Below the pieces are notes generated by a model that was given only the letters and a program-made list of their open reading frames with translations, made no database searches and had not been told where the DNA came from. Source: Echinarachnius parma (Eukaryota; Echinodermata; Echinoidea; Clypeasteroida; Echinarachniidae). From it: 64,000 nt of DNA. Below, piece after piece: positions 36,769 to 45,300 of the stretch (position 1 is its first letter; each line of letters begins with the position of its first letter). The stretch covers positions 1 through 64,000 of the forward strand of contig JBAMJV010010667.1 of NCBI GenBank assembly GCA_037951105.1, given 5' to 3'. Both the position numbers and the translations under genes were made by a program.

Positions 36769-37051
36769 TATCAAATTTGCACCCAGGCAACTTAGCCAAC
36801 GAAAGTAAATGTATTATTTGGCCTTTCGTAAACGCCTCCTTCGCCTAAAATAGAAGATATTATAGGTGGCGTAGCACAGGGGGCTAGGGGTCATTGCCCC
36901 CTCCCCCCTTCCCCATTATTCCGCTACGCACCAATGGGGAAATAAAGAAACAAATACACGCTCCTTGTTTCTCTTTAATATACAAGTATTTCCCAAGCTA
37001 ATATTGAATCTGAATTAAAAAAACGGCTTCCGGGGCCAATCAGCGATCGCG

Positions 37052-37203
37052 ATGAAGTTTGATGATATTCTTCGCGACCTCGGTGAGTTCGGGAGGTACC
37101 AGCGATGGGTGTACCTAGCTTTGTGTATCCTCTCTCTCCCTGTGGTCTGTCAGTAATTCTGGCGCAGGTCTTCCTGGCATCGGCCATGGACCACTGGTGT
37201 CAG
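37052..37203 (+). pseudogene. Broken first-exon copy 1 of gene B
   Basis: Matches the intact exon from [20 protein letters not shown] through LSLPVVCQ and then meets TAA. Relative to the intact copies there is a net gain of two bases (152 against 150 nt) near 37154; after it, the original frame [15 protein letters not shown] and the donor GTTAGT resume. The upstream region common to the other copies is also deleted (the join is at CCAATCAG|CGATCGCG near 37041). It cannot supply a functional N-terminus. Confidence 0.85.
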
Positions 37204-39374: not shown

Positions 39375-42300
39375 GTTAGTTGAATCTTCCTAAAAATATG
39401 CAACAAGTTGATACCATTGATAAGTTTCGGATCAATCTAAATATTTATTTTTGATTAATTGATATGTTGTATATAATATGCGAATAATTGGTTCATTGTA
39501 TAACTCAATAATTCATTTTGTTAGTTTGTTCATGACTATATTATTATGTTTAAAAGGTGTGTAAACAAAATAAATTAAATTAAATAAAATAGAAAACATA
39601 CTTCGTTTTGTTTTGTTCTTCCTCTCTGTCTCTGATCTATCTCTGGTATCCCCTATACTTATATACCGTATTTCCTTTCTTTATACGCATAGAGACCCTA
39701 ACAGTTGTTAACCTTAGTGTGATATGCGCTATAGAAGAACCGTTTATTATTATTAGTAGCAGTAGTAGTAGTAGTAGTAGTAGTAGTAGTAGTAGTAGTA
39801 GTAGTAGTAGTAGTAGTAGTAGTAGTAGTAGTAGTAGTAGTAGTAGTAGTAGTAGTAGTAGTAGTAGTAGTTGTAGTAGTATCATATTATTATTATTATT
39901 ATCATTATTAGTATTATTATTATTATTATTACTATTATCATTATTATTATTATCAGTATTACTTTTTTAAATTTCAATTCAATTCCCGTTATTTTTGTCC
40001 AAGAATTACTTTGCATAAGTAAATTCAATCAGCAAATCAATCAACAATCGATTTCTTTTTGTGTATTTATATATTTCGTCTGTGTTCAACAGGGTGTACT
40101 CTTTTAGTGACCGGGCACTTTTTTGTATAGGGGACCGTGTGTACAAATAAAACATGTATAACACGATAATACATAACACTACAAAAACAGTATACATAAA
40201 ACAAATAAATCTAACAAACAATCAATGAATAAATGAGCTATAAGCAAATATCAACATTTCGTAGTTTGTTATAACAATGTCATTGTTTTTGCCAATTAAC
40301 TGTGGGGAACGTTCCCTCATACCTACGCCAATGAACGTGACATAATATTATCGCAACACACACCAAATTCTGCTTCGTATTTGTTAAATGTAAAGGGATT
40401 ATTAATACTCACGTAATTATTATCGATCAATCGTTCGATCAATCAAAGAACCAATCACTCAATCAACCGACCGATCAGCAAGCAAGCAATCAATCAATCA
40501 AGCAAGCAAGCAAGCAAGCAAGCAATCAAGCAAGCAAGCAATCAAGCAATCAATCAATCAATCAATCAATCAATCAATCAATCAATCAATCAATCAATCA
40601 ATCAATCAATCAGTCAATCAATCAATCAATCACGCAAGCAAGCAAGCAAGCAATCAATCATTCAATCAATCATTCAATTAATCAATCAATCAATCAATCA
40701 ATCAATCAATCAATCAATCAAGTAATCAATCAATCAATCAATCAATCAGAGCATTGATCAGTCTAGTAAGCAAGCAAATCACAAAAAAAAATTCTTTGAC
40801 ATGTATGAATTAACTATTTTTAACAGATTTATATTTGTTTTAAAATGGTTGAAATAAATGAAATTAAATGTAAATCTAAATTAGCCAATCAAGCAAGCAA
40901 GAAAGGAGCAAATGATCAATCAAACAATTAATTTTTTGGTCAAATGGTTGAGGCACGTGCCTCCGTTATACCCAAGTCACACCCGCAAACTGAACCCACT
41001 ACATACCTAAAAGCAACATTTCGCTATCATATATGACAGTATCGTTCCAATCTGTTAGTTCATGAGTACACATAGTCCCCTGGCATTATTAGAAGATGAA
41101 AAAACATTAAACCTTCGCCTGAAATAGAAGATATTAGGTGGCGTAGCACAGGGGGCTAGGGGTCCTAGGGGGTCATTGCCCCCTCCACCTTCTCCATTAT
41201 TCCGCTATGCACCAATTGGGAAATAAAGAAACAAATACACGCTCCGTGTTTCTCTTTCGTTGGCACACTCCATCATTTAATATACAAGTATTGACCAAGC
41301 TAATATTGAATCTGAATAAAAAAAACACTTCCGGGCCAATCAGCTTACGGTTTATTTCTCGTTTCATTCTCGCGATTTCGAAACAGAAATGCACTTTAAT
41401 CTTCTGATTTGGGAAACATAATTTACGGTCGTTTCTTCACTTCATATTGATTCAGAGTTGTTCATTGGCTCTATCTCTGGAATAAGCCCGCGGCTCAAAA
41501 TACGGTATAATACCTAATCAAATGTGCTAGAGATCGGAATGAAGTTGATATTAGGTTTCCTCACAAAACCAAAACACCGAATTAGAAATAAAATTGAAGG
41601 CAGACGCATTTGAAGAAAAAAATCGGTTCTTTCCAGAAGTCCATGCTTGACTCAAACTTGTTATAACATCCGAGGCATCTGTCCATCATCCCCTTTGCAC
41701 TTCATAATTACATGTATCGACGTTTTGTTTCAATTATTGGTTATAAGTTGTAATCCTATTTCGCGTTAGCGATGAAGTTTGATGTATTCTACGCGACCTC
41801 GGTGAGTTCGGGAGCATGGTAAACATAAGATGATGCGTTCTAACAAATAAGGTTATAGTTATACATTACTGATAAGTTATTAATTCAAATTCAAGTAATT
41901 TTTATTTTTGTCCAAGAATCAGATTGCATAAGAAAATCAATAATCCAATCAATCAACAATCGATTTATTTGTTTATTATATATTTTGTCTACAGCAGGAA
42001 GGACTCATCAGTGATCAGACACTGCTTTCCAGGGGGCTTTATGTGGACAAATAATACATACATAACATGATACTACAAAACACTACAAACACATGCATAA
42101 TACAAACAAACGCAAAACCTTATATATTTACAACCAATACATAAAATCAGGCTCCGTGTTAGGCTCGGAGGGGGGCTCCCAAGAAATGGACGGAGCCCCC
42201 AGGCTTCGTGTGTGCTCGGAGGGGGCTCCTCAAGAGATGCACGAAGCCCCATGCTTCGTACTTTCTTGAAGGGGGGCTCCCCAAGGGATGCACGGAGCCC

Positions 42301-45300
42301 CCAGTCTTGCACACCCCGAAACAGTCAGTTTTTCGTCAAACACACACACACCTTCCCTTCAGAATCAGCAAATACATCATTATGGTATCGAACAGTGTTG
42401 TTTTATAAGCTTTATAGACAATTTGATACAATAAAACAAACGAGAAAAGTATACAACTGTATACGTTCTGATACAAAGTCCAAAGGCCTATTGTGTTTTC
42501 TTTGACTTATGTGTATGTATATTGGTCGGATATCAAATTTGCACCCAGGCATCTTAGCCAACGAAAGTAAATGTATTCGTTGGCCTTTCGGGAACGCCTC
42601 CTTCGCCGAAAATAGAAGATATTATATGGCGTAGAAAAGGGGGCTAGGGGGTCATTACCACCCCCCCCCCCCCCACACACACACACACACACACACACAC
42701 ACACACACACACACACACACACACACACACACGCACACACACACATTATACCGCTATGGCCCATTGTGAAAATAAAGAAACAAATACATGCTTCTTGTTT
42801 CTATATATCCCACACAAATAGAATTAAAAAGAGTGTGCACACCCCCCCCCCCCCCAAAAAAAGAAGATAATAATAATAAATCAATAAATAACAATTTAAA
42901 ACAATAATAATAAATAAATCAATAAATACAAATATAAATCAACACCAGAAAATATAATAAATAAACACAAAATAATGATAAAAATACTGCTACTAATAAT
43001 AATGATAATTATCGCGTGCCCCTCCCCCAAATGAGTCAGTTGGATGAAGTACGTACGCCACTGTCCATGGCTGTGCAGCACCTCTGAAAACTATCACGGT
43101 ATGAGTACATAGACGCGTCTTCATTTCACTGGTTATTCTTGGCAACATACTACTACCTGACTAGGACTAACCAAGCATCGAATTGAATAAATCTGCATAT
43201 AATATATTTCCAAAGCTAATATTGAGTCTTTGCCAATAACGGCTTCCAGGGCCTATCACCTTACGGTTCATTTCTCGTTTCATTCTCGCGATTTCTATCA
43301 CGAAGGGAACAGTTGCACTTTAATCTTCTTATAAAGGAAACATATTTTTATTTTCTTCTCTTCACATTGATTTATGCATTGGCTCTTTCTCTGGGACAAA
43401 GTAGCTGCTCTCATATAATACCTAATTGATCATGAGCTCGAGATCGGAATGAAATTGATATTTAGTTTCCTCACCGAACCAAAACACCGAGAAATAAAAT
43501 AAAGTTGAAGGCAGACGTATTTGACCAAATCAGTTCTTCATTACGTTCCATGCTTGACTCTTAGTTTTATCAATATCCGCGGCATCTGTCCATGGTCGCT
43601 TGGAACTCGAACACAATTAGATTGCTCGACGTTTTGTTTTAATTATTGGTTAACTTATAAGTTGCAATAATATTTCGCGATGAAGTTTGATGATATTCTT
43701 CGCGACATTGGTGAGTTCGGGAGGTACCAGCGATGGGTGTATCTAGCTGTGTGTATCATCTCCCTCCCTGTGGCCTGTCATCAACTGGCTCAGGTCTTCC
43801 TGGCATCGGCCATGGACCACTGGTGTCAGGTTAGTTGAATCGTCCTAAAAATATGCAACAAGTTGATACCATTGATAAGTTTAGGATCAATCTAAATATT
43901 TATTTTTGATTAATTGATATGTTGTATATAATATGCGAATAGTTGGTTCATTGTATAATGCAATAATTCATTTTGTTGGTTTGTTCATGACTATATTATT
44001 ATGTTTAAAAGGTGTGTAAAAAAAAAATGAAATAAAATAAAAATAGAAAACATACTTCGTTTTGTTTTGTTCTTCCTCTCTGTCTCTGATCTATCTCTGA
44101 TATCCCCTACTTATATATTTCCTTTCTTTATACGAATATGAACATGACATAATACATGTATTATCGCAACACACACCAAATTCTGCTTCGTATTTGTTAA
44201 ATGTAAAGGGATTATTAAAGGTACTTCAGATTCGTCAAATCAGATGCGCGGCGCCATCTTAAGTACACGTTGCGCACGGTGCGTGATGCACGTTAGCTCA
44301 GTGTCATGCGGTGCGCGCAAACTGGCCCAGTTCAAAATGGCGACCCGCTGTGTAGCATCCCCACGCTTGATGCCCTTTAATACTCACGTAATTATTATCG
44401 ATCAATCGTTCGATCAATCAAAGAACCATTCACTCAATCAATCGACCGATCAGCAAGCAAGCAATCAATCAATCAAGCAAGCAAGCAATCAATCAAGCAA
44501 TCAATCAATCGATCGATCGATCAATCAATCAATCAATCAATCAATCAATCAATCAATCAATCAATCAATCAATCAATCAATCAATCACGCAATCAATCAA
44601 GCAATCAATCAATCAATCAAGCAATCAATCAAGCAATCAATCAATCAATCAATCAATCAATCAATCAATCAATCAATCAATCAATCAATCAATCAATCAA
44701 TCAATCAATCAATCAATCAATCAATCAATCACGCAAACAAGCAAGCAAGCAATCAATCATTCAATAAATCATTCAATTAATCAATCAATCAATCAATCAA
44801 TCAATCAATCAATCAATCAATCAATCAATCAATCAATCAATCAGAGCAGTGATCAGTCTAGTAAGCAAGCAAATCACAAACAATATTTTCTTTGACATGT
44901 ATGAATTAATTATTTTTAACATATTTATATTTGTTTTATAATGGTTGAAATAACTGAAATTAAACGTAAATCTAAATTAGCCAATCAAGCAAGCAAGAAA
45001 GGAGCAAATGATCAATCAAACAATTAATTTTGTGGTCAAATGGTTGAGGCACGTGCCTCCGTTATACCCAAGTCACACCCGCAAACTGAACCCACTACAT
45101 ACATACAAGCAACATTTCGCTATCATATATGACAGTATCGTTCCAATCTGTTAGTTCATGAGACACATAGTCCCCTGGCATTATTAGAAGATGAACAAAT
45201 ATGAAACAATAATTTGGTGTGTGTTATCAAATGTCATGCTCATTGACGAATCTATGGGGGTACGCACCCAAAATAATTTGGCAAAACAATTATAATGTAA

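Follow-up and report, generated by a model that had tools for sequence, protein, structure and literature searches.

Four tandem copies of a first exon, two intact and two broken, in an SLC22-type transporter gene of Echinarachnius parma

Why should a transporter gene possess the same first exon twice, each copy with its own upstream sequence, when both specify the same start of the protein? This question is raised by gene B, an apparent SLC22-type transporter gene of Echinarachnius parma, located in the first 64 kb of contig JBAMJV010010667.1 (C10645, 141,451 bp); we refer to this stretch of 64,000 nucleotides as the window. An SLC22-type first exon is found here in four copies, at 37052, 39225, 41772 and 43680, within two tandem blocks. 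An original prediction, made from the letters of the window, had named these four positions, and self-comparison confirmed them. We number the copies c1 to c4 along the contig and call the broken pair, c1 and c3, alpha and the intact pair, c2 and c4, beta. The assembly used for genome searches comprises 1.2 Gb in 14,790 contigs.

Intact and broken first exons of gene B

The features on which the argument rests are all on the plus strand; the block limits were derived from self-comparison and edge alignment, and B' denotes a paralogous gene described below.

36839..41112, plus: tandem block 1, about 4274 bp, with c1 and c2
37052..37203, plus: c1, broken first exon with a 2-bp gain and an in-frame stop; donor GTTAGT kept
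38752..39224, plus: region upstream of c2, promoter-like by position
39225..39374, plus: c2, intact first exon, 150 bp, 50 codons, donor CAG/GTTAGT
41113..45207, plus: tandem block 2, about 4095 bp, with c3 and c4
41289..41771, plus: region upstream of c3, retained by this broken copy and closest to B'
41772..41814, plus: c3, broken and truncated first exon with a 1-bp deletion (frameshift)
43205..43679, plus: region upstream of c4, promoter-like by position
43680..43829, plus: c4, intact first exon of 150 bp that encodes the 50 residues of c2, donor CAG/GTTAGT
51824..52078, plus: exon 2 of gene B, phase 0, AG acceptor, GT donor; common target of both intact first exons

The two beta copies are identical in all 50 of their residues and differ by a single synonymous change, GTA/GTC at 39341, where c2 has A and c4 has C. 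They have upstream sequence in common, although their 5' flanks differ, for example by an indel near 39199. Both retain the context of the ATG, the reading frame and the donor, and since exon 2 (from 51824) is in phase 0, frame and donor permit the splicing of either copy to it. Two intact homologous first exons stand in tandem before one common set of exons. The further proposal, that these are two equivalent first exons with two equivalent promoters, holds for the intact exons, their own upstream regions and the fitting frame and donors, whereas the promoters are putative and are proposed from the position of these regions. A comparison of the beta upstream region (38600-39224) with the assembly yielded matches at only four places, c2, c4, c3 and B', and we therefore rejected the idea that it is a dispersed repeat.

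The alpha copies are broken in several ways. Besides the 2-bp gain and the stop, c1 lacks about 420 bp directly upstream, which are present at c2, c3, c4 and B'. In c3, the frameshift is accompanied by a deletion of about 290 bp, which removed the 3' part of the exon, the donor and the start of the intron. The original prediction had listed copies 1 and 4 as broken, but these are copies 1 and 3 (37052 and 41772), those at 39225 and 43680 being intact. It had correctly described the 2-bp gain with stop and the large deletion, which belongs to c3, and had missed the upstream loss of c1 and the 1-bp deletion of c3. Because the deletion in c3 spans the site of the 2-bp gain in c1, full independence of the lesions cannot be shown, and the gain could have been common to both alpha copies.

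We consider it somewhat more probable than otherwise that this array arose by the birth and death of units composed of a first exon and a promoter, with two redundant start exons of a single protein as the outcome. The beta type of unit would be the one that stayed intact, and the alpha type, related to the first exon of B', the one that died. A tandem duplication of 4.2 kb would have copied one alpha and one beta unit together, with a microhomology of about 4 bp (AAAC) at the junction, and each beta copy, which possesses an upstream region, a start codon and a donor of its own, would join exon 2 at 51824 to yield the same protein. As far as can be judged from sequence, the beta copies are most likely redundant, mutually exclusive first exons. 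We infer that both are transcribed, one to the exclusion of the other, and that their redundancy is mostly neutral and transient; any benefit of the doubled start exon is hypothetical. If both intact exons are used, the start unit has been doubled with the protein left untouched, which would provide a clean natural case in which to ask whether expression depends on promoter copy number.

Judged by its predicted product, gene B is an SLC22-type transporter gene. Its exons 1-9 encode 462 residues and match the chains of OCT2, OCTN2 and SLC22 member 3 nearly end to end. The best match, computed with exon 10 left out, was between residues 4-460 of OCT2 (8et9) and residues 2-460 of gene B (E 7.9e-83). 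The Pfam families Sugar_tr (PF00083, 4.3e-25) and MFS_1 (PF07690, 5.4e-20), both of the MFS fold family, matched above their cut-offs. The window contains a second gene of the SLC22 family, gene A, also on the plus strand, and the remaining gene features are as follows.

19547-29684, plus: gene A, 10 exons found
52687-52790, 58307-58461, 58761-58929, 59719-59857, 60447-60538, 61172-61386 and 62950-63058, plus: exons 3-9 of gene B
67874-68083 of the contig, outside the window: match to exon 10 of gene B
15705-16584, minus: third SLC22-type gene, represented by its exons 9 and 10; the match to exon 10 is in two frames

A probable tandem duplication and the fate of the intact pair

The two direct blocks of 4.2 kb proposed originally stand as two tandem blocks, with their lengths refined to the values given above and their junction placed at 41112/41113. 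The AAAC of the proposed microhomology is found at both outer edges of the pair of blocks as well as at the junction between them. Identity between the blocks is 90% over 2.4 kb and 93% over 0.7 kb, with E = 0, and therefore chance resemblance is excluded. As a yardstick for allelic differences we used contig C11350 (19,853 bp), an allelic version of the region of gene A. Outside the coding sequence and with simple repeats left out, the aligned pieces of the blocks differ at 146 of 2392 sites (6.1%), as compared to 202 of 10149 (2.0%) between the alleles of gene A, so that the blocks are on average about three times as divergent.

These figures bear on the alternative that the blocks are the two haplotypes of a single region of 4.2 kb, which the assembler laid in tandem, an artefact that the original prediction had already named as its possible refutation. 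We consider it improbable. Separated haplotypes do exist in this assembly, as C11350 demonstrates, and at another locus with tandem first exons, on contig C6130, a further contig, C12951, terminates inside a similar duplication. Weighing against a real duplication, the alleles of gene A differ by as much as 5.1% in the 800 columns where they are most divergent and by 10% at the scale of 300 columns, such that the blocks could be allelic. The matches listed contained no allelic contig for the first exon or the beta upstream region of gene B, as would suit two haplotypes placed in one contig, but this absence is not specific to the blocks, because exon 2 likewise lacked an allelic contig among the best 40 of 2264 candidates scored. 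Also against the artefact, the paired broken copies c1 and c3 bear different large deletions. Because the blocks are so much further apart than the mean of the gene A alleles, a real duplication is favoured over an assembly artefact, yet not proven. If the arrays were artefacts, they would be a warning for any tally of promoters or first exons made from a heterozygous assembly.

A duplication may be real and still leave only one of the intact exons in use, the other being silent, a duplicate too young to have decayed, and we give this a substantial chance, though well below even. Two other units of the array have decayed, and at a further locus, C11193, one of two copies already contains a stop codon. 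On the other hand, c2 and c4 alike have kept their ATG context, frame and donor, and they differ less in the exon (1 of 150 sites) than in the flanks (36 of 1003, p about 0.027). The low difference in the exon is compatible with purifying selection. However, the tract without substitutions between c2 and c4 measures 268 bp (39074-39340; p 0.002 for random placement) and extends about 150 bp into the 5' flank, where the flank portion alone is unexceptional (p 0.10). Selection plus chance, or gene conversion, are each possible and sufficient causes of this tract, and a conversion tract would account in part for the near identity of a silent copy. Strong selection on the intact exon is thus no more than possible, given a p of 0.027 and a clean tract that runs into the 5' flank.

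Paralogue B' and the broken copies

The closest relative of the alpha copies is found outside the window. Contig C1883 carries on its minus strand the paralogous gene B'. One intact first exon of this gene lies at 111271-111122, and exons 2-10 are represented by matches. A tree of first exons, computed from 10 rows with outgroups and leaving out c3 as too short, joins c1 with B' at a support of 98/99. At sites where four outgroup exons agree, four derived states join c1 with B'. The upstream regions, compared on 448 common columns, differ at 56 positions between c3 and B', 81 between c2 and B' and 99 between c2 and c3. Further, the c1 and B' introns can be aligned (25 of 210 sites different), whereas for c2 and c4 the similarity to B' breaks off 7 bp past the exon. 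We conclude that the alpha copies are closest to the first exon of B' and are probably not simple duplicates of the beta copies. The nested duplication envisaged originally was too simple in this respect: an origin of all four copies from one exon of gene B after the split of B and B' is disfavoured by the exon tree and the upstream distances. This falls short of a formal rejection, since the approximately unbiased (AU) test does not reject c1, c2 and c4 as one clade (p 0.087), and two derived sites, which also tell against our conclusion, join c1 with beta.

Two explanations compete for the origin of alpha, and only for that. In one, which we hold to be nearly an even matter, c1 and c3 are what is left of the 5' end (upstream flank, promoter, exon 1 and start of the intron) of a B'-like gene that once lay upstream of B or was copied there, and beta is the first exon native to B. 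The homology of c1 and B' indeed spans upstream flank, exon and intron start. The noncoding divergence of alpha and B' (11.1%, interval 9.2-12.6; 9.7% when the c3 upstream region is included) is lower than that of the B and B' gene bodies (14.8%, 13.0-16.3), and the beta upstream regions, with 64 of 437 and 58 of 438 differences to B', are on a par with the gene body. For the bootstrap intervals, the gene body was represented by 17 of 22 rows from 49 kb on, with out-of-order hits and extra repeat copies dropped, and alpha by 5 rows, with a fold-back element (36228-36771) dropped and the c3 upstream region treated apart. Against such a graft, local rates vary and the upstream region is possibly constrained; near the exon, the beta intron cannot be aligned to the B' intron, unlike what is expected of a native first exon; and the synonymous divergence (dS) of exons 2-9 (0.14) is nearer to that of alpha and B' (0.20, 33 codons) than to that of beta and B' (0.25-0.30).

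The other explanation, which appears rather unlikely to us, is that the ancestor of B and B' already possessed both alpha and beta, of which B' kept alpha while B kept and doubled beta. It agrees with the exon tree, where the outgroups place beta outside the pair of c1 and B', and with the preservation of c1, where no more than 2 of 150 sites have changed in this copy alone, below the neutral expectation (p 0.0006 to 0.006, depending on the assumed rate). Due to this small number, c1 was probably functional until fairly recently, unless it was refreshed by conversion. In contrast, no beta unit was found beside B' within C1883:80001-130000, alpha and B' appear to have diverged more recently than the gene bodies, and the AU test leaves the grouping of c1 with B' short of formal significance. 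The relative dating of alpha, beta and gene body gives mixed signals, in that the noncoding distances favour a graft and the dS values and the unmatched beta intron do not.

Several further observations concern B' and its surroundings. An inverted-repeat (fold-back) element occupies 36225-36771, within a stretch that is otherwise nearly continuous with the upstream sequence of the B' first exon, and a 91% copy of it is located at C1883:112937-113485. A segment of gene B intron 1 (45869-46107) matches intron 1 of B' (C1883:110125-110357) in an orientation that is opposite relative to the gene. Beside the intact exon 5 of B' lies a broken copy (C1883:101249-101118, minus strand), whose residues GIIIE are nearer to exon 5 of gene B than to the intact B' copy.

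Tandem first exons at other loci and in known systems

In a search of the assembly with the first exon (30 matches of 34 candidates), full tandem first exons were found at four loci, gene B, C11193, C6130 and C8785. At C11193, a third, fragmentary copy accompanies two full ones, of which one contains a nonsense change, and the divergence is 1.1%. The two copies at C6130 are identical in 150 of 150 positions and their flanks differ by 1.5%; C12951 has at least 1946 identical bases in common with C6130 and ends between the two copies. C8785 contains three identical copies in units of about 4.63 kb that diverge by 0.4-0.7%, and the matches listed when the assembly was searched with gene B, with exon 8 and with exon 5 included no downstream SLC22 exon on this contig. 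The divergence within these three arrays is at or below the allelic level, which weakens them as parallels to gene B: because it is no higher than between alleles, assembly artefacts are possible at all three.

To compare exons, we merged loci by hand, counting contigs with equal or near-equal scores as one, with an alignment check for C11350 and C12951 only. Full tandem copies of exon 1 occur at 4 of 19 loci, as compared to 0 of 23 for exon 8 (31 matches of 38 candidates) and 0 of 19 for exon 5 (23 matches of 28 candidates), a contrast of 4/19 to 0/42 with a Fisher p of 0.007 in a comparison that was post hoc, being chosen after the data had been seen. Counting the near-full relic of exon 5 in B', which the genome search with exon 5 missed, raises the value to 0.029, and it becomes 0.09 if only two of the four first-exon arrays are real. 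With partial copies included, the proportions become 5/19 and 4/42 (p 0.12). These partial copies were sought in A, B and B', with C5844 added from the genome searches, and comprise exon 1 of A, exon 8 of A, B and C5844, and exon 5 of B'. As the contrast fades once they are counted, a special liability of exon 1 to duplication is a lead, not a result; duplication with decay is seen across several exons of these SLC22 genes.

One might go further and propose that the SLC22 family here repeatedly multiplies cassettes of promoter and first exon with the protein unchanged, at gene B, C11193, C6130 and C8785, and that the copy number of start units is an evolvable dial of dosage or induction for drug-type transporters, fed in part by the exchange of first exons between paralogues. 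We regard this as decidedly improbable at present, its odds being lowered by the outcome of the partial-copy count. The similar arrays at other SLC22 loci make the question of promoter number testable at several places.

Arrays of this kind have precedents. In UGT1, and also in GCNT2 and the clustered protocadherins, tandem homologous first exons precede common downstream exons, with broken copies among intact ones and a history of birth and death. In zebrafish, according to PMC1885805, the copying of Ugt1 proceeded in part by a unit of two exons (a1/a3, a2/a4), which resembles the block of alpha and beta units described here. First-exon multiplication with partial decay is therefore already known from UGT1 clusters; what differs here is that the intact copies have not diversified. 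First exons of the UGT1 type differ from one another, diversifying the N-terminus, and every one has a promoter to itself, whereas gene B has only two intact copies, with putative promoters, which translate identically. The array also resembles tandem exon duplications with mutually exclusive choice, in that adjacent homologous exons have equal length and phase and one is expected per transcript, yet unlike in mutually exclusive internal exons the choice would be made by promoter. Such duplications are reported for about 10% of animal genes, and hydra is reported to have nine homologous initial exons (PMC9013439). SLC22 members have been described in sea urchin and other invertebrates (PMC4633038), in a paper in whose main text the words exon and tandem were not found. 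Among open-licence PubMed Central (PMC) literature on SLC22 and alternative first exons, titles and the starts of abstracts revealed no SLC22 gene with tandem first exons, from which we claim no absence from print.

Smaller duplications accompany other exons of these genes. In gene A, a second copy of the 3' end of exon 1 (19783-19829) lies 86 bp downstream of the exon, with its donor changed from GT to GC, and is present also in the allelic contig C11350 (10511-10552). A partial copy of gene A exon 8 is located at 25838-25890, about 180 bp upstream of the exon (96% over 53 bp). Two decayed partial copies of exon 8 (60839-61080) lie upstream of the intact exon 8 of gene B, and C5844 has partial exon 8 copies at 11666 and 11885, beside 12056. 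Within intron 3 of gene B (53200-56600), three similar tandem units contain long GAAT arrays; a piece of 223-228 bp in these units differs at 5 sites between the first and second unit and at 0 between the second and third.

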